Positions 18,180 through 64,000 of a stretch of 64,000 nucleotides of DNA are shown one piece after another. The DNA is taken from positions 1 to 64,000 of the forward strand of contig JAUWMI010000016.1 in NCBI GenBank assembly GCA_030613245.1, given 5' to 3'. This DNA comes from Candidatus Sumerlaeota bacterium. Lineage in GTDB: Bacteria > Sumerlaeota > Sumerlaeia > MWCT01 > JAUWMI01. The notes under the pieces were generated by a model, which saw only the letters and a program-made list of their open reading frames with translations, had not been told where the DNA came from and did not search any database. Within the stretch, counting starts at the first letter, position 1. Every line of letters begins with the position of its first letter. Position numbers and translations under genes: made by a program.

Positions 18180-18962
18180 CTAAGGCGTGCGGGCCTTGTT
18201 GAGGAAATAGGAAAGCACAGCGATGAGCAGCAAATAAAAGATTGTCAGGGCAATGTTTCGCATCGCGGATTTCTGAGCCGGAGGCTCTGATGTCGGAGAC
18301 TCTGATGCCGGAGGGGTTGGATGCTCTTCCTCCTTCTCTTCAGGCTGACCAAAAAGATCTTCCAGGGAACGCTGGGTGAAAAGGTCTTTGAGCGTAATTC
18401 GGCGTTTGGGTTCAGTTGCTTCAAGGGGAAGGAGCTCTTCTTCTACAGCTGCTTCTTCTACTTGTTCACGGCGCGGGTGTGGCACTTCGGCTGGAGCAGG
18501 CTGTAGTGGCGCACCTTTTAGCGCTTGCAGCTTCTCATTCACTTCTTCATAGGTCTTCAGGTCGAGCGAGGAGAAACGAATCTTATCTAACACTGTATCA
18601 TGACCCCACAGGCTGCATTCCGCCCGACCGTAGAGGTCGCCTTTTACCTCTGCACGTACAATCACGCTTAGCGGGTACTTCGACACGATGACGTCCCGCG
18701 CTAATGCCTTATTAAGAATGAACCAGTGTTGAGGGGTGATGATAGACCAGCACTCGCCAATATCGCCTCGCTTATCCGCAGCCGTGCGAATGACAATAGC
18801 TGGCTCTTCACCAGGTTGAAGCTCCGGCTTTAATCGGTCGCGGATATCCACGGGGATTTGAATCATGCTCTTCGCGGCTTCGCGCCTAACGCGCTTTTGT
18901 GCCATCTGTGGGCGCATCGGTTCGTGGGCCTCTGAGCCCCAGATCTGTCGAGGAATTTTCAT
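18180..18962 (-). CDS. Hypothetical tail-anchored membrane protein
   Basis: 260 residues from the ATG at 18962, which has a good AAAGGA ribosome site; the frame extends to 19058 but that would overlap yqeY. Residues about 45-145 form a compact domain with alternating hydrophobic strands (PGEEPAIVIRT, CWSIITPQHWFIL, YPLSVIVRAEVKGDLYGRAEC), reminiscent of bacterial PH-like domains. A Pro/Glu-rich linker of about 80 residues follows, then a single C-terminal membrane helix (IALTIFYLLLIAVLSYFL). I do not recognise the family. It lies between yqeY and the LipS-like pair on the same strand. Confidence 0.7.
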   Translation of the reverse strand: MKIPRQIWGSEAHEPMRPQMAQKRVRREAAKSMIQIPVDIRDRLKPELQPGEEPAIVIRTAADKRGDIGECWSIITPQHWFILNKALARDVIVSKYPLSVIVRAEVKGDLYGRAECSLWGHDTVLDKIRFSSLDLKTYEEVNEKLQALKGAPLQPAPAEVPHPRREQVEEAAVEEELLPLEATEPKRRITLKDLFTQRSLEDLFGQPEEKEEEHPTPPASESPTSEPPAQKSAMRNIALTIFYLLLIAVLSYFLNKARTP

Positions 18963-42180: not shown

Positions 42181-43398
42181 ATGACATTTGAGCGGTTCAT
42201 CAGTTTTCGCTATCTCCTGTCCAAGGAGCACAGGGCCCTTGTCTCGATCATCACGATCATCTCGATTATCGGGGTTATGCTGGGCGTAGGCGCCCTAATC
42301 GTGGTGATTTCTGTGATGGATGGTTTCGACAATGAGCTGGTGGGCAAGATGATGGGGGTCTTTTCGCACATTGAAATCTGGCAGGGATGGCAAGAAGAAA
42401 TGACGGATTACGAGCAGGTGATTGCAAAGGTCAGCAACGTGCCCGGGGTTGTGGCCGCAGCACCGATCATTACCCGTCAGGCGCTGCTTCAACCCTCAAC
42501 AGGCATTGAAACCCAGAAGGTCGGCGTGGAATTTCGCGGCATTGATCCTGAGCGTGAAAGCCATGTAACTTCATTTGCCAAGGATGTTGTCGCAGGCACT
42601 GGCTTGCCCGGCTGGCGTGAAGTGGTTATTGGCTGGAAGCTGTCCCAGCGACTCGGACTGACGGTGGGTGATGATGTGTATGCTATTACGAAGCTGGCTA
42701 GGACTGCAAATGGACCCGTTGCCAAAATTGCCAGACTTAAAGTTGTCGGTGTATTCAAATCCGGACTATACGACGTGGATTCAGCATTTGTATATTCCAA
42801 TCTGGCCACGGTGCGAAGCATCTTTCTCCTTGGCGAGGGTGTAGATTGTGTGCATGTGCACGTCGGGGATCCGTACCAGGTCAGGCAGATCAAAGGGCGC
42901 ATTGCCAGGGAGCTCGGTGGACACCGTACGATCCGCAGCTGGGACGAGCTGAACCGGGCGTTCTTCAATGCCCTGCGCATGGAAAAACTCGTGATGTTTA
43001 TTATTCTGATGCTTATTATTGTTGTTGCCGCTTTTAACATCGTTGGCACTCTCATTATGATTGTCACGCAAAAGACACGCGAGATCGGCGTCTTAAAATC
43101 TATGGGTGCTAACAACACGAGCGTTCTCAAGATTTTTCTCTTTTATGGAGTCACGATTGGGATTGTTGGAACAGCCGTTGGAGTGGTGCTCGGACTTGGG
43201 CTGTGTGGGCTCTTGAGGTTGATTCGTTACGACCTTCCTGATGCGATCTATGGGATTGACACCTTGCCGGTCTTAGTTGAGCCACTGACTGTTCTCATTA
43301 TTGTTGCGGCGTCGCTGGCAATTTGTATACTGGCCTCCCTTGTGCCGGCCTGGCAGGCGTCTCGCTTAGATCCTGTTGAGGCATTGCGCTATGAATAG
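42181..43398 (+). CDS. lolC: Lipoprotein-releasing ABC transporter permease LolC/LolE
   Basis: 405 residues from the ATG at 42181, which has an AGGAG site; a TTG at 42133 is less likely. Topology is one N-terminal helix, a periplasmic domain of about 230 residues and three C-terminal helices. The family start FISFRYLLSKEHRALVSIITIISIIGVMLGV and the FtsX segment IVTQKTREIGVLKSMGA are clear. It extracts outer-membrane lipoproteins from the inner membrane together with LolD. Only one permease gene is present, so it likely forms a homodimer (LolF-like). Confidence 0.95.
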   Translation: MTFERFISFRYLLSKEHRALVSIITIISIIGVMLGVGALIVVISVMDGFDNELVGKMMGVFSHIEIWQGWQEEMTDYEQVIAKVSNVPGVVAAAPIITRQALLQPSTGIETQKVGVEFRGIDPERESHVTSFAKDVVAGTGLPGWREVVIGWKLSQRLGLTVGDDVYAITKLARTANGPVAKIARLKVVGVFKSGLYDVDSAFVYSNLATVRSIFLLGEGVDCVHVHVGDPYQVRQIKGRIARELGGHRTIRSWDELNRAFFNALRMEKLVMFIILMLIIVVAAFNIVGTLIMIVTQKTREIGVLKSMGANNTSVLKIFLFYGVTIGIVGTAVGVVLGLGLCGLLRLIRYDLPDAIYGIDTLPVLVEPLTVLIIVAASLAICILASLVPAWQASRLDPVEALRYE

Positions 43399-57249: not shown

Positions 57250-60200
57250 ATGAAAATACCAGAATTTTCGGTACACCGCCCGGTAACAGTATCAATGTTT
57301 ATTCTCATGATTGTGGTCTTGGGTGGCATATCTTTTATCAGACTTCCCATTGAACTTATGCCCGACCTGACCTACCCGGTGGCTGCGGTCATAACCAGCT
57401 ATGAAGGGGTTGCATCGGAAGATGTGGAAACCCTTATTACTAAAGTTATTGAATCAGCGGTTAGCAAAGTCAAGAATGTAAAGACCGTCAGTTCCACATC
57501 TCAAGAAGGTCTTTCGATAGTAGTAGTGGAATGTGAGTGGGGTACCAATATTGATTTCGCTGCCCAGGACATGCGCGATGCTATAGGGGTTGTCAGGGAC
57601 TATCTACCGTCCGAGATCGATGACCCCATCGTTTTAAAATTCGACCCATCAATGATCCCCGTTATCGCCTATGGAATTGTGGGAAAGAGGAGCCTGCGTG
57701 ATCTCCGGTCTCTCGTCAAGGATGAAATAAAGGATCGCATCGAGATGGTTGATGGTGTGGCAAGCGCCATGATTATGGGGGGCAGAGAAAGAGAAATACA
57801 AGTCTTGCTTGACCGCGCAAAAGTGGAATCATTAGGTATCCCCCTCCAGCAGGTGGTTGCAAAACTGAGGTATGAAAATCTCAATCTTTCGGGAGGACAT
57901 TTAACCCAAGGCCACACAGAATATCTTCTGAGGACCCTTGGTGAATTTGAAAATATTGCCCAGATCATAAACACAGTGGTAGCAGTTCAAAATGGTAATC
58001 CTGTTTATATCAGAGATATTGCCACGGTCGCAGATACTCACAAAGAGGTTCGCAATGACAGCCGTGTCAATCGTCAAAATGGAATAATCCTTTCTGTCAT
58101 CAAAGAGTCGGGTGCCAATACGGCTGAAGTTGTCAGCGCAGTTAAGAAACAGGTTGCGGCACTCAGGGAGGAACTTCCCCCGGATATTGAATTCTATATT
58201 GCCCTCGATCAAGGTGCACTTACCGAGAAGATTGTCTCCTGCACAGGGCAGGATGCCCTATGGGGTGGTCTCATCGCGGCAATCCTGATCCTGCTTATCT
58301 TACGCAACTGGCGTCCTACCCTTACCATCGCACTTTCGATTCCTCTTTCAATCCTGGGCACATTCGTTGTGGTGTATGCCTTCGATTTCACCCTTAACAC
58401 CATGACAATGAGTGGTCTTGCACTCGGCGTTGGGATGCTGGTGAGCAACGCCATCATTGTCATCGAGAATATTTTCCGCCACATGGAAGAAGGCAAGAAT
58501 AGATTCGAGGCTGCGATCGATGGCACAAGTGAAGTAGGAATGGCAATAGCCGCTTCCACTTTCACCACCATAGCGGTCTTTCTTCCAATGTTCTTTGCAA
58601 CCGGCATTGCGGGAAAACTCTCGCGTGGTCTTGCCCTCACCGTAGCCGTATCGCTGTTGGCCTCGCTTTTCGTGGCCTTGACACTCGTGCCAATGATGGC
58701 ATCCAAGATATTCCGGCTGAGAACGAGAAAACAGGGGAATGATTCAAGAAAAGATAAGCGTGGAGTCGTTAGCAAAATCTACGGCAGTCTCCTGCAATGG
58801 GCACTGCGCCATCGCTGGAAGGTAACCCTAGCTTCATTCGCTGTATTTGCAGGAAGCCTGGCACTTGTTCCTCTTGTCGGAACAGAATTCATGCCCGCCA
58901 TTGACACAAGTTTGGTGATTATCAAAGTCGAAATGCCTGTTGGAACAGAACTGGACGAGACACGCCATGTAGTACAGCAGATTGAAGATATTATGGCTGA
59001 TGAGGGAGGACTCGACGTTGTCTGTTCGTTCACTGGTGTGCTGGTAGGAGCAAAGATGGAAGCAGCCTTCGGAATGAGCAACATCGGAGTAAATGAGGCG
59101 CAGATTTTCGCCCACGCCGTAGACAAAGACAAGCGTAAGCGCACAACCATGGAGATACAAGATAGTATCAGGAGAAAGCTTCCCAATATAAAAGGAGCTA
59201 AGATAGAATTTATGGATCTGGCAAGGATGATTACGAGTGCCGGTACAGGGCAAATCCCTATCGAGGTAAAGATTTTCGGTAAGGACATAATAAAGCTGGA
59301 GCAGATAGCTAACAATCTCGTCGCTGACTGTAAGGATATAGAAGGACTATATGATGTGGACACTACTCTTCGACGTGGAAAACCTGAGCTTCACTTCAAG
59401 ATTGACCGAGAGAAGGCTTCACAGATGGAACTATCGGTTGGACAGATTGCCTCCACCGTCCGAGCTGCGTTTGAAGGGCAGGTAGCAACTCTTTACCGCA
59501 CTGGCGGAGATGAGTTTGACCTGAGAGTGAAATATCAGGAGAATGATAGGAAGACCTTGCAGGATGTTGAAGACATCCTCGTGGCCGCTCCGCTCGGGTC
59601 GCAGCATCGGCTCTCTGATATCGCAGAAATATCAAAAGGGGAGGGTCCTGTGAGGCTCTTCCGTGAAAATCAAAAGCGGAAAGCCTCGGTGACCGGCAAC
59701 TTCAGCGGACGGGACCTTGGTAGCATTCTTGCTGATATCAAGTCAAAAGTAGCCAAGGTTGACTTTCCTCAAGGTTATTTCGTGGAGTACGGTGGCGAGA
59801 TCAAGCGCATGAGGGAGACCTTTTTTTCGCTGGGCGCAGCCTTCATACTTTCCGTTCTCCTAGTCTATATGGTTATGGCTGCCCAATTTGAATCCCTGGT
59901 ACATCCTTTCGGTGTTATTTTTACAGTGCCCTTAGGACTCATCGGCGTAATACTGCTTCTTCTTTTCACAGGAAATACACTCTCTCTACCCTCGCTTTTG
60001 GGAATGATCATCCTGGCAGGAATAGTGGTAAACAACGGAATTGTGCTGGTGGATTATATAAATCAACTCAGGGCGCGCGGCATGGCGAGGGATGAAGCCA
60101 TTGTCCGGGGCGGTATAACAAAGATGCGAGCTATGCTGCTGACCGCCGCCGTGGCAATCGTGGGGATGACCCCGATGGCTATATCGACCGGCGAAGGAGC

Positions 60201-60357
60201 TGAAATGCGTGCTCCTATCGCACTATCAGTTATTGGCGGGATGATCGTATCGACCTTTCTGATGTTAGTAATCATACCGACGGTCTACAGTATCCTGGAT
60301 GAAATTGCCCGTAAAGCAAAAAGGCGAACCGCCGAGATTCTACATGGGGAGGAATAG
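57250..60357 (+). CDS. RND-family multidrug efflux transporter
   Basis: 1035 residues, full length, with helix 1 near residues 10-30 (TVSMFILMIVVLGGISF), two large periplasmic loops and helices 2-6 and 8-12. Proton-relay residues appear in the GLALGVGMLVSNAIIVIENIFRH segment (helix 4 in HAE1-type pumps usually has two Asp; here GMLVSNAI has Asn). The C-terminus has VMAAQFESLVHPFGVIFTVPLG and GMIILAGIVVNNGIVLVDYIN. It probably exports hydrophobic drugs, bile-like compounds or metabolites. It starts 21 bases after the adaptor. Confidence 0.95.
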   Translation: MKIPEFSVHRPVTVSMFILMIVVLGGISFIRLPIELMPDLTYPVAAVITSYEGVASEDVETLITKVIESAVSKVKNVKTVSSTSQEGLSIVVVECEWGTNIDFAAQDMRDAIGVVRDYLPSEIDDPIVLKFDPSMIPVIAYGIVGKRSLRDLRSLVKDEIKDRIEMVDGVASAMIMGGREREIQVLLDRAKVESLGIPLQQVVAKLRYENLNLSGGHLTQGHTEYLLRTLGEFENIAQIINTVVAVQNGNPVYIRDIATVADTHKEVRNDSRVNRQNGIILSVIKESGANTAEVVSAVKKQVAALREELPPDIEFYIALDQGALTEKIVSCTGQDALWGGLIAAILILLILRNWRPTLTIALSIPLSILGTFVVVYAFDFTLNTMTMSGLALGVGMLVSNAIIVIENIFRHMEEGKNRFEAAIDGTSEVGMAIAASTFTTIAVFLPMFFATGIAGKLSRGLALTVAVSLLASLFVALTLVPMMASKIFRLRTRKQGNDSRKDKRGVVSKIYGSLLQWALRHRWKVTLASFAVFAGSLALVPLVGTEFMPAIDTSLVIIKVEMPVGTELDETRHVVQQIEDIMADEGGLDVVCSFTGVLVGAKMEAAFGMSNIGVNEAQIFAHAVDKDKRKRTTMEIQDSIRRKLPNIKGAKIEFMDLARMITSAGTGQIPIEVKIFGKDIIKLEQIANNLVADCKDIEGLYDVDTTLRRGKPELHFKIDREKASQMELSVGQIASTVRAAFEGQVATLYRTGGDEFDLRVKYQENDRKTLQDVEDILVAAPLGSQHRLSDIAEISKGEGPVRLFRENQKRKASVTGNFSGRDLGSILADIKSKVAKVDFPQGYFVEYGGEIKRMRETFFSLGAAFILSVLLVYMVMAAQFESLVHPFGVIFTVPLGLIGVILLLLFTGNTLSLPSLLGMIILAGIVVNNGIVLVDYINQLRARGMARDEAIVRGGITKMRAMLLTAAVAIVGMTPMAISTGEGAEMRAPIALSVIGGMIVSTFLMLVIIPTVYSILDEIARKAKRRTAEILHGEE

Positions 60358-60665
60358 ATGACAATCCCTTCACGTCAGAGGAATGCCAATAGAAGAATTT
60401 TACTCATTCTTGCCGGGAGTTCGGGAGTTCCGGGGACACCATACTTATCTCTCTTTTCCAGGGTATCTCTCCGATGGTTGAATGGGTTTGCTTTTCGGTC
60501 CCGGCTTGCGAGGCACGCGCATGTGACCCAACATTCTCTCAAGGTTAGCTATGGACCCCGGTTTGCTTAGAGATCTTTCTGTCCTCTCGTGCACACACAT
60601 CCTTTCCACTTCCTCACCCGCATCCTGCCCATCCTGTTTAATCTCCGAGCTGCACTCGCAACGCT
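60358..60665. other. Intergenic region, possible transposase remnant
   Basis: About 300 bases. On the - strand around 60445-60570 the frame encodes a short stretch (LERMLGHMRVPRKPGPKSKP) reminiscent of the C-terminus of REP-associated tyrosine transposases, but no start, catalytic region or complete frame is present. I see no intact gene. Confidence 0.25.
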
Positions 60666-60770
60666 TAATGTATAGTGCGTCCATTTAAGCAATGAGAAGA
60701 ACAGGATATTAGGATGTGAAGGATAAACCCCAAGAAAATCGTATGTATCCTACCTATCCTGTTTGCTATT
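60666..60770. repeat. Palindromic repeat, copy A
   Basis: An imperfect palindrome: AACAGGATATTAGGAT (60700-60715) faces ATCCTACCTATCCTGTT (60746-60762) around GGATAAACCCCAAGAA. It is preceded by a 35-base segment (AATG-AT-GTG-TCC-TTT-AGCAAT) that is also shared with copy B. Confidence 0.7.
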
Positions 60771-60817
60771 TAGTTCTACGCATCCTTCTTATTTACCGGC
60801 CTGGAGCTTGCGAATCT

Positions 60818-60922
60818 GAATGCATTGTGTATCCGTTTCAGCAATAAAAAGAACAGGACGATAGGATGTATAGGATAAACCCCAAGAACATCCTATCCAT
60901 CCTACCCATCTTGTTTACTGCC
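60818..60922. repeat. Palindromic repeat, copy B, at the 3' end of the GxxExxY gene
   Basis: Second copy about 152 bases from copy A, with the same leading segment, AACAGGACGATAGGAT, the central GGATAAACCCCAAGAA and ATCCTATCCATCCTACCCATCTTGTTT. The stop codon and last residues of the GxxExxY gene lie inside this copy. Confidence 0.7.
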
Positions 60923-61285
60923 CGGCCGAAACAATCGCTTGTACTCGATTCTTGGGGTTCCGAAGTTGACCAACAGTCCGACTTCAATCCCCGTGGCTTT
61001 TAGGTAGTGGATTACCTGAGCAGAATGCTCTGGGGTGAGCACCTTTACAGCTTTTAGTTCGACAATAACCTTCCCTTCTACCAGTAGATCGGCGAAATAT
61101 TCCCCGATCTCCTGGCCCCTGAAGAAGACCTTAACGGACGCCTGGGACTCTACGGAAAGCCCTTTCTCTCGGAGGGCAATGGCCAACGCCTTCTCGTAAA
61201 CTGGCTCGAGAAATCCTGACCCCAGCTCATTCGCAACCTCAAAGCAGGCTTCCAGGATTTTCGATGTAAGCTCTTCGTAAAGCAT
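60902..61285 (-). CDS. GxxExxY protein
   Basis: 127 residues. The namesake motif is G24-F-L-E27-P-V-Y30 in ELGSGFLEPVYEKAL. Later segments VKVFFRGQEIGEYFADLLVEGKVIVELKAV and QVIHYLKATGIEVGLLVNFG match the family, which has a PD-(D/E)XK nuclease-like core (D-x-L-V and E-x-K in the ELKA segment). Cellular function is not established. The gene is bracketed by palindromic repeats, one ending inside its 3' end and one about 10 bases upstream of its ATG, which suggests it moves or spreads with them (inference). Confidence 0.9.
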   Translation of the reverse strand: MLYEELTSKILEACFEVANELGSGFLEPVYEKALAIALREKGLSVESQASVKVFFRGQEIGEYFADLLVEGKVIVELKAVKVLTPEHSAQVIHYLKATGIEVGLLVNFGTPRIEYKRLFRPGSKQDG

Positions 61286-61295
61286 AAATTTAATG

Positions 61296-61362
61296 AACAG
61301 GATTTTAGGATTAGTAGGATATCTTATTAAGAAACATCCTATCTATCCTACCTATCCTGTTA
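61296..61362. repeat. Palindromic repeat, copy C, just upstream of the GxxExxY gene
   Basis: Third copy: AACAGGATTTTAGGATTAGTAGGAT faces ATCCTATCTATCCTACCTATCCTGTT with a shorter, AT-rich centre. It shares the arms but not the leading segment of copies A and B. Confidence 0.65.
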
Positions 61363-61487: not shown

Positions 61488-64000
61488 TTAATCAAAAGTG
61501 AGAAATTCTAATATTGAATTCATGGCCTTATGACGAATTTCTTCGCTCGTTATTGTTTCAAAAGGGAATCCAAAGACAACCACTCGATAATCTACACCTC
61601 GGTATGCAATCCCTGCGTTGAATTTAGCATCTTCATATCGAATTACAGTCTCTGCACCTGAATCTTTTGCTGGTTTCAAGGAGTCCGGTAACTCGACCCC
61701 GTATACATCATTCTCACCAATGCCCGCACTAAAATGAAATTCGCCTACTTCCTCGAATATGCTACCCTTAACTGGCACAACATTATTCGTCTTGCTGCCG
61801 TTATTTGTCACCCAGTCGCATTTTAATACAGTACGTAAAAATTCTCGGTCTGATTCTGTAACTGTCGGCGCTGTGCCGCCAAGGTCAGTTGCAACGTATG
61901 CGCCGCTGATAAATAGCCGACCGGAACCTGTGGTCAGGTAGTCGTTGATAAACGCCTGTTCCATACGAGTTAATGTCTTGAATTGCGGTTGCATCCTGTC
62001 AGGTGGGGCAGTTCCCTGGGGCCATGGTGGCGGCAAGGTCGTTCGTTCCTCGCCAAGCAGCCAATCGACTACTGCGTAATCGTTCAGGTCTATTTGTCCT
62101 GTTGCCACTGCTTCGTCGCTAACCGTGTCAAACGTCCACCCTGCCTGAGCCAGTGCATCCCCATGAATAATGGCAAAATCAAAGGTATTCCCCAGCTCCA
62201 GCTTCGTTTCCAGATCACCATACGATGCTCCCCAGCCTGGATTATCATTGGTAAGGAATTTGTGGCTTGGATCGAAATCATACTGGTCTCCTGTAAGTCC
62301 CAGATTCCAGCAATAACCCACGCCATGGTCTGCGTTTGCTCTCAGTGCTCCACGAAAATTCGGACTTTCTACAAAACTTGGCGGGGCAATTCGGTCGAAT
62401 CCATTTACAATAAGTGCCTTCGGAGTTTTTGCACCATCTCCTGTGCGTACGCATAGCACTTCGGAAGCGAAACTTTTACCCCCTTCATTAACCGCTGCGA
62501 CCTTGAAGCTATAAATCTCATTCGGATCAAGCCCGTCGAGTTCAACTCTATTATCCCTGACATAAATACCGTTGTCGAAACTCGCATCAACGCCAGAACG
62601 TGTATATACCACATAGGCATTTGGCACTGCACTTGGCTCTAACGGGTCATCCTGCGGCTCCCATTGAAGCAGTACCTTCCCTTTACCAGTTGCTCTGGCG
62701 AGGAAATTCTTTGGTGCCAACGGCGCAATCACCGGCTCAAAACCATATTCATAAGCAATAAATCTGAGCATCCCCTTGTAAATTGCGCGTGAAACATCAA
62801 AACGGAACCGTGGATCAAGGCCGTATTTCATGTCATCAAAATTCTGATGCGAAAGTAACTCCAGTAGCACTGCAGGAACATTTGGCCGACGCACCTCGCT
62901 ATAATCTGCATTCCTCAGCTGACGTCGTGTCCACGTAGAGCTGTATTTCAGCCTCAAGTCGCGGATTATTTGCGATTGCATTATATCTGCATAGTCTCGA
63001 TTTAACCAGCGCGAGCGCCCATCTGGAAACTGTTCCTGTCTCTTTGCGTCTTGCACACGATATATCATCAACGTTCCGACTACACCTGTCGTAATACCTG
63101 CATCCGTATGAAACCCGAGAGATAAATCAATCGGTACGCCAAGTCCCGGATGTTCTCGCTTCACATTCGGCCCTGATGGCGCTCCACGCAAATAGTTCAC
63201 CCATTCACTTCTGCCTGTGTAGTCTTCAAGATAATCAGGTCCTCCAAATCTTGATTCTATGCCAAGTTTGTATACAAATTCAGGCTCCACCCCTGCATAC
63301 TGCATCCAGTACCGGGCACCTTCGCAATATCTGGGATATCCACTTATACTCTCTTCACGAATTATATCACCCATCCCACCACCAAATTTTACCGCATCTG
63401 CTGATATGGTCATTCCTGCGGTTGTCGAATCGTTAAATAGGGCCACACTCCCCCTTTCTGACGAATGCCCCTCACGAAAGTGAAAACCGCCAAGATAAAC
63501 CCAGGTATTACCAGCCATCTGTTGATTGACCAGAAACTCAGTTTTCCCACCTGTATGATAGACCACATAGTGCGCATCAGTGGCTCGTTCTGGCGATGCA
63601 TTGTAGGAGATGTAAATACCATAATAACCATCTTCTGGAATTACTGGTGTCCAATGAGATACAGCTGTCGCATCCCCGTCAACGGTTTTTACCACTCGGT
63701 GATGTCCCTCTCGATGCGGATTCATATCGTCAGGATACGGAGCCAGATAGTTCTTGAATCCAAAACCATCGTCCACATCCCAATTTTCTGTTCCTTCTTC
63801 CTTAAAAGTGCCATTTTCGGAAAATCTCTCACCGTCATCGTCATCCACCAACACTTCATGTATTTGCAGATCACGATCTCTTGGGCAGAAAACTACTGCA
63901 CCGGCATTCTCCAGCATCGGCATTAAAAAAGGTATTGTAAAACTCATCGGCAGCATATCCTCTACAATGGTGAACATCCTGGGTCTTTGCCACTGCCATC
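61488..64000 (-). CDS. N-acetylmuramoyl-L-alanine amidase-like exported protein with golvesin-type insert and FnIII domain (5' end outside window)
   Basis: The frame is open to the window edge, so at least 837 residues are visible and the N-terminus is missing; the ATG at 63977 is internal. Order seen: an amidase start helix (PFLMPMLENAGAVVFCPRDRD); a golvesin-C-like jelly roll inserted at about 55-185 (HYVVYHTGGKTEFLVNQQ, WVYLGGFHF); the rest of an Amidase_3-like domain with a putative zinc His in SLGFHTDAG and the catalytic Glu in VPAVLLELLSHQNFDD; an FnIII domain (KVLLQWEPQDD, NEIYSFKVAAVNEGG); and a C-terminal domain of about 300 residues (KALIVNGFDRI, FDFAIIHGDALAQAG, GRLFISGAY) resembling a class I amidotransferase-like fold. 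It probably cleaves peptidoglycan or another glycan outside the cell. Confidence 0.82.
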   Translation of the reverse strand, partial: WQWQRPRMFTIVEDMLPMSFTIPFLMPMLENAGAVVFCPRDRDLQIHEVLVDDDDGERFSENGTFKEEGTENWDVDDGFGFKNYLAPYPDDMNPHREGHHRVVKTVDGDATAVSHWTPVIPEDGYYGIYISYNASPERATDAHYVVYHTGGKTEFLVNQQMAGNTWVYLGGFHFREGHSSERGSVALFNDSTTAGMTISADAVKFGGGMGDIIREESISGYPRYCEGARYWMQYAGVEPEFVYKLGIESRFGGPDYLEDYTGRSEWVNYLRGAPSGPNVKREHPGLGVPIDLSLGFHTDAGITTGVVGTLMIYRVQDAKRQEQFPDGRSRWLNRDYADIMQSQIIRDLRLKYSSTWTRRQLRNADYSEVRRPNVPAVLLELLSHQNFDDMKYGLDPRFRFDVSRAIYKGMLRFIAYEYGFEPVIAPLAPKNFLARATGKGKVLLQWEPQDDPLEPSAVPNAYVVYTRSGVDASFDNGIYVRDNRVELDGLDPNEIYSFKVAAVNEGGKSFASEVLCVRTGDGAKTPKALIVNGFDRIAPPSFVESPNFRGALRANADHGVGYCWNLGLTGDQYDFDPSHKFLTNDNPGWGASYGDLETKLELGNTFDFAIIHGDALAQAGWTFDTVSDEAVATGQIDLNDYAVVDWLLGEERTTLPPPWPQGTAPPDRMQPQFKTLTRMEQAFINDYLTTGSGRLFISGAYVATDLGGTAPTVTESDREFLRTVLKCDWVTNNGSKTNNVVPVKGSIFEEVGEFHFSAGIGENDVYGVELPDSLKPAKDSGAETVIRYEDAKFNAGIAYRGVDYRVVVFGFPFETITSEEIRHKAMNSILEFLTFD

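Follow-up and report, generated by a model that had tools for sequence, protein, structure and literature searches.

A GxxExxY nuclease gene between phased-core inverted arms: a candidate minimal mobile element recurring in many bacterial phyla

A GxxExxY gene and three palindromes

The window analysed here is the whole 64,000-nucleotide stretch at positions 1 to 64,000 of contig JAUWMI010000016.1 from a Candidatus Sumerlaeota bacterium. Between a gene at 57250-60357, which by eye has the appearance of an RND-type transporter, and a golvesin/amidase-domain gene at 61488-63977 (profile search), the window holds a small GxxExxY gene accompanied by palindromic repeats, as follows.

60902-61285, minus strand: GxxExxY gene, 127 aa, predicted RecB/Cas4-type PD-(D/E)XK nuclease (PF13366/TIGR04256)
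61052-61090, minus strand: codons D66 to K78 with the D...ExK motif (D66, E76, K78; then Q90xxxY94), from conservation in 80 sequences
60700-60763, no strand: palindrome A, 3' of the gene (repeat analysis and folding)
60852-60915, no strand: palindrome B, overlapping the 3' end of the gene (repeat analysis and folding)
61296-61361, no strand: palindrome C, 5' of the ATG, with AGGAT cores every 9 bp (repeat analysis and folding)
60655-60767, plus strand: tandem unit copy 1, holding palindrome A (direct repeat, 152-bp spacing)
60807-60919, plus strand: tandem unit copy 2, holding palindrome B (direct repeat, 152-bp spacing, 78% identical)
60622-60639, plus strand: partial right arm ATCCTGCCCATCCTGTTT, facing outward; probably a decayed additional copy

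The sequence-only reading had placed three palindromes at this locus, and all three were recovered as non-random structures, since none of 200 dinucleotide shuffles of each folded equally well (z -3.68 for A, -3.63 for B and -3.91 for C). Its description of A and B as direct repeats 152 bases apart also held, as they lie in 113-nt tandem copies with GGATAAACCCCAAGAA common to both. Palindrome B, as described, runs into the gene and covers its final bases, and palindrome C lies upstream, ending 11 bases from the ATG. Each arm proved to be no single simple arm but a row of AGGAT cores, repeating about every 9 bp. Across the whole genome, the exact pattern AACAGGAT-N30..60-ATCCTGTT matched at palindromes A and C only, and a wider 9-bp-periodic pattern gave 33 matches versus 1 for its reversed-pattern control. 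Elsewhere in the window, short tandem repeats with a 15-bp period (18272-18313 and 42992-43020) are unrelated to the GxxExxY unit.

Profile searches assigned the window's protein to TIGR04256 (147.4 bits against a cut-off of 35, E-value 2e-43) and PF13366 (146.3 bits against a cut-off of 22, E-value 6e-43). Among 80 sequences, G22, G24, Y30, D66, E76 and F108 were invariant and E27, K78, Q90 and Y94 nearly so, with K78, Q90 and Y94 conserved in at least 90%; the resulting D...ExK...QxxxY residues we take to be the signature of RecB/Cas4-type nucleases. An AlphaFold2 model (mean pLDDT 94.9) had Cas4 SSO0001 (E 8e-5) and lambda-type exonucleases as its best solved Foldseek matches, and a sequence search of the PDB gave no credible match. 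Predicted fold and catalytic residues together point to a RecB/Cas4-type PD-(D/E)XK nuclease, lending support to the earlier suggestion of a nuclease-fold core. A paper on reverse transcriptases reported a GxxExxY domain where another annotation tool had called cas4 (PMC8934634), which fits the Cas4-like fold. For most compared pairs dN/dS was 0.03-0.2, indicating that the protein is selected for function. Relatives of the protein were not found in viral contigs, PHROGs gave no match, and Rfam gave none to the repeats. In L069 (G010) and in G018:C73, a single open frame of 302-360 aa carries two GxxExxY domains, and fusions are suggested by further frames in G033 and G034 that reach about 550 aa.

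Seven PF13366 genes were found in the window's genome, and palindromic or inverted arms lie beside all seven. Their cores are of several types, namely CACAGAG (L005), CACGAAT (L008 and L010), CACAAAG-like (L009), ACARGAT (L007 and L011) and the AGGAT of the window copy. On contigs 48 and 42, two 468-bp unit copies that are 95.7% identical occupy unrelated sites, their similarity stopping at the arms or at most 13 bp from them; no target duplication was found at these two young copies. Gene-less phased palindromes are also dispersed across this genome. Four further loci (L022, L024, L026 and L030) are composite tandem repeats in which ACARGATTN palindromes are joined to CACGAAGNN-type arrays, and no GxxExxY gene was seen in the stretches of them that were read.

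Inverted arms across the GxxExxY family

Family loci were collected from 31 related genomes, from 29 named contigs (Planctomycetota, Acidobacteriota, Chloroflexota, Neomarinimicrobiota, Pseudomonadota, Bacteroidota, Verrucomicrobiota and others) and from the whole genomes behind some of these contigs, the genomes being mostly drafts and metagenome bins. In a non-redundant set of 125 GxxExxY genes spanning several phyla, 69% had left and right flanks that matched as inverted repeats with a score of at least 14, versus 0.85% of 235 other ORFs from the same loci, and when left and right flanks were mispaired between different GxxExxY genes (116-gene set), 4% passed. Phased cores, counted where three or more C[AG]CNNA[GTA] cores followed one another at intervals of 8-11 bp, were present beside 77 of the 125 genes, and were seen in 0.1% of shuffles and in 1 of 100 cases at a distance of 460-600 bp. 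One or the other arm test was passed by 98/125; the roughly 20% of sampled genes failing both automatic tests include visibly bracketed ones with other cores, such as the window copy. The usual unit measures about 420-560 bp and holds one gene. Palindrome bracketing is the rule for the GxxExxY family, and gene and arms form one evolutionary unit.

The sequence-only reading had also named what would speak against a mobile unit, that is, repeats widespread without the gene together with GxxExxY genes mostly lacking repeats. Palindromes without a gene are indeed common, but the genes themselves are mostly bracketed, and this combination is as expected if an autonomous unit has given rise to derivatives that lack the gene. 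On the protein tree, the window's protein has L072 in genome G023 as its closest neighbour (support 93), and directly behind L072 stands a tandem array of a 150-bp unit, repeated about 11 times, with a CACGGAT/ATCCGTG palindrome. In total, G023 holds about 30 copies of this palindromic unit in several arrays, among them L233:1105-2811 (11 copies) and L234:182-1347 (8 copies), one of which lies directly behind a GxxExxY gene. By analogy, these arrays can be regarded as a BIME-like amplification, and the A/B pair of the window, with its 152-bp spacing, resembles this process on a small scale.

Each arm is composed of 3-4 tandem, inward-pointing 7-base cores (mostly CRCNRAK), with a core spacing of 8, 9 or 10 bp and few exceptions. 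Within a unit, left and right arms agree at 94% for core positions, at 76% for the fourth core base and at 50% for the spacers (1-3 bases), so that the cores are conserved and plain base pairing is not. By these values, the arms have the pattern of a row of putative protein-binding sites, unlike that of a plain stem; stem pairing as the conserved property was rejected, as the spacers mismatch freely. The ATCCTGTT arm alone was dropped as a family identifier because the cores vary between protein clades.

On the protein tree, which is built from short proteins and has many weakly supported forks, the last base of the core changes 6 times, versus at least 15 times in 300 label shuffles. Within the AG clade (n=52) this base is G in 50 cases, T in one and A in one, and outside it there are 0 G, 14 T and 4 A. 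Both core types, AG and AT, coexist in G000, G032, G033, G041 and G043, each with its own protein clade, and a shared genome background is therefore no explanation. Core sequence and protein co-diversify, both across phyla and inside single genomes.

Empty sites, target duplications and copy number

The evidence on empty sites and target-site duplications (TSDs) comes from relatives of other copies, not of the window's copy; a joined-flank search in two genera belonging to the same class as the window's genome did not find orthologous flanks, and for this reason no empty sites were seen there, but it brought the 150-bp arrays to light. In the Neomarinimicrobiota genome G035, the flanks of eight units were joined and searched in congeners, and five of the sites proved contiguous, that is, empty, in one or both of them. 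The three congeners of this genus carry 25, 7 and 1 GxxExxY matches. One unit type (L141/L146/L149) is flanked by the exact 8-bp duplications ATAAAAAC, CAATTTTG and AATTTATG, which in L146 and L149 can be read as some bases longer. A fourth copy has AAAATAAC on both sides, the pairing being deduced as the copy is split over two contig ends, and a fifth, L216, has no duplication. Of the five copies examined of this unit type, four thus have exact 8-bp TSDs, and such TSDs were found for this type only, in a single Neomarinimicrobiota genus. In our base-level reading, an 8-bp duplication with one mismatch fits L148, and one of 7-8 bp fits L140. A blind TSD test on 78 elements gave no general signal and recovered only those few. 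Of the features that the sequence-only reading had proposed to look for, empty sites were present, and target duplications were exact in one unit type and not detectable in the bulk of the elements. In G046, the counterpart of L149 has an internal deletion. Units insert at new sites in one genus.

In a Chitinophagaceae genus (14 genomes), six junctions were followed at base level, and the presence or absence of the unit differs by species, with different GxxExxY types occupying some of the junctions in different species. One species retains the left arm alone (L174), and another species has a gene-less palindrome where relatives have the gene (L205). Against the mobile-element reading, many GxxExxY copies in the wider collection are old and have been kept vertically at one site (L086/L087, L098/L101).

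Two junctions show further detail. At the L156 junction of the Chitinophagaceae genus (L191-L194), the unit sits exactly where, in unit-less species, two genes share an ATGA overlap, and the downstream gene then appears to begin inside the right arm. At L210 (G057), the left arm repeats, in inverted form, the opening bases of the host gene that lies downstream (GTCAGAACCATGATTTGG versus CCAAATCATGGTTCAGAC), which looks as if the other junction had templated one arm.

Taken together, family-wide bracketing, empty sites, 8-bp duplications and copy-number differences between congeners support the original proposal of a mobile unit distinct from classical insertion sequences.

Known systems and candidate mechanisms

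In REP/RAYT systems, a gene is flanked by two inverted REPs and co-evolves with them (PMC2817692). The GxxExxY units resemble these systems (REPtron, REPIN, BIME; PMC2817692, PMC8266576, PMC3116915) in having a single gene between inverted palindromic repeats, repeats that diversify together with the protein, and gene-less palindromes that are both dispersed and arrayed. However, RAYT is an HUH tyrosine transposase and GxxExxY a predicted PD-(D/E)XK nuclease. In the GxxExxY units, moreover, 7-base cores repeated in tandem every 8-10 bp make up the arms, a genome usually has more than one copy that carries the gene, and TSDs occur in one genus. The test that defines RAYT was negative because the enzyme is unrelated: the window protein gave no HUH/Y1 tyrosine transposase match, PF13366 being its sole profile match and its predicted fold being Cas4-like. 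By eye, no GTAG or CGTC tag was seen beside a hairpin in the listed arms.

With DDE insertion sequences and their MITE derivatives, the units share empty sites, internally deleted copies and, in one GxxExxY-bearing genus, an 8-bp TSD, and they are bounded by terminal inverted repeats (TIRs), as DDE insertion sequences are. They differ in that the whole unit of about 430-560 bp has room for one ORF, the PD-(D/E)XK nuclease of about 125 aa, with no DDE transposase found within it; moreover, each arm is a phased array and not a single TIR, and most copies show no TSD. Rpn/transposase_31 proteins (PMC5350276) are likewise PD-(D/E)XK nucleases with many paralogs that have been proposed to promote recombination or mobility. 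The Rpn families PF04754 and PF12784, different Pfam families, did not match the window protein in a profile search. We know of no bracketing repeats for Rpn. Cas4 and lambda-type exonucleases share the predicted fold and the D...ExK...QxxxY catalytic residues, but GxxExxY is shorter (about 125 versus about 200 aa) and stands alone in an arm-bracketed unit. In a literature search on GxxExxY, PF13366, TIGR04256, the repeat strings, and PDDEXK with inverted repeats, with preprints and most subscription papers outside its reach, no account of the association was found.

We propose that the small RecB/Cas4-type nuclease would bind the cores, which offer 3-4 sites per arm spaced by roughly a helical turn, would pair both arms and would then cut at or near their outer ends. 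Intergenic DNA could subsequently receive the unit, inserted or copied by host repair or replication. In one genus, insertion duplicates 8 bp of AT-rich target. Gene-less palindromes would be non-autonomous derivatives mobilised in trans, and the tandem palindrome units of about 150 bp may be local amplifications. By core recognition and cutting, the nuclease would drive the movement of its own unit and of the gene-less copies. The window copy, a GxxExxY gene with phased-core inverted arms, is probably such a minimal mobile element, moved, we infer, by its nuclease. With about 450 bases and a recurrence in many phyla, the unit has the look of a minimal mobile element of a kind so far undescribed. 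For the family at large, we lean slightly towards GxxExxY units being a widespread, undescribed class of minimal autonomous transposable elements, powered by a RecB/Cas4-type PD-(D/E)XK nuclease that would read phased 7-base cores, and seeding many of the palindromes with 8-10-bp periodicity (CACAGAG, CACGAAT and ACAGGAT types) that are dispersed over bacterial genomes.

The main rival to nuclease-driven movement is a DDE transposase acting in trans, in which case the units would be MITE-like and moved by an unrelated enzyme, with the nuclease as cargo that has another role, such as defence or repair. A TIR together with an 8-bp TSD is what DDE elements typically show; the tip GTAATAG...CTATTAC is similar to what we take to be IS66-type ends, its GTAA together with the 8-bp duplication recalling IS66, and L148, a differently cored unit, likewise begins GTAAGAGTTCAC. 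However, a search for IS66 in G035, a draft genome, found none, and IS66 was set aside as the mobiliser there. The unit-end tips in that genome belong to copies of the L141/L146/L149 unit or to L148, the remaining tip matches look like chance, and no insertion sequence was recognised at them, the transposase search having covered IS66. Furthermore, the arms are specific to the GxxExxY clade in many phyla and the tips vary by unit, whereas cargo would be swapped. We consider movement by such a transposase unlikely.

Still less probable, in our judgement, is that the arms are operator and terminator-like binding sites of a resident nuclease that now serves the host, for instance in repair or phage defence, mobility being a matter of the past. 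Strong purifying selection, long retention at some sites, the overlap of the arms with the gene start region and the weak Cas4 similarity would all suit such a domesticated gene, but it would not account for equal arms at both ends, for close species that differ in presence or absence, for recent insertions with TSDs, or for copy numbers of up to 25 alongside gene-less copies. That GxxExxY genes merely lie by chance among common intergenic palindromes of the REP kind, as the numerous solo palindromes might suggest, has a negligible probability. This reading was refuted by the other ORFs of the same loci (bracketed in 0.85%), by the absence of arms 460-600 bp from the gene, and by the correlation between core and protein clade inside single genomes.

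If nuclease-driven movement of the GxxExxY unit is true, a nuclease fold would join the few enzymes known to drive DNA elements, here in an element of very small gene content, and a protein family so far known by its motif alone would gain a function. The AG/AT core rule offers a simple and immediate test of specificity. An explanation would also be at hand for large classes of intergenic palindromes that have had none in many bacterial phyla, and Cas4-like mobility enzymes would be relevant to how the CRISPR adaptation nuclease arose.
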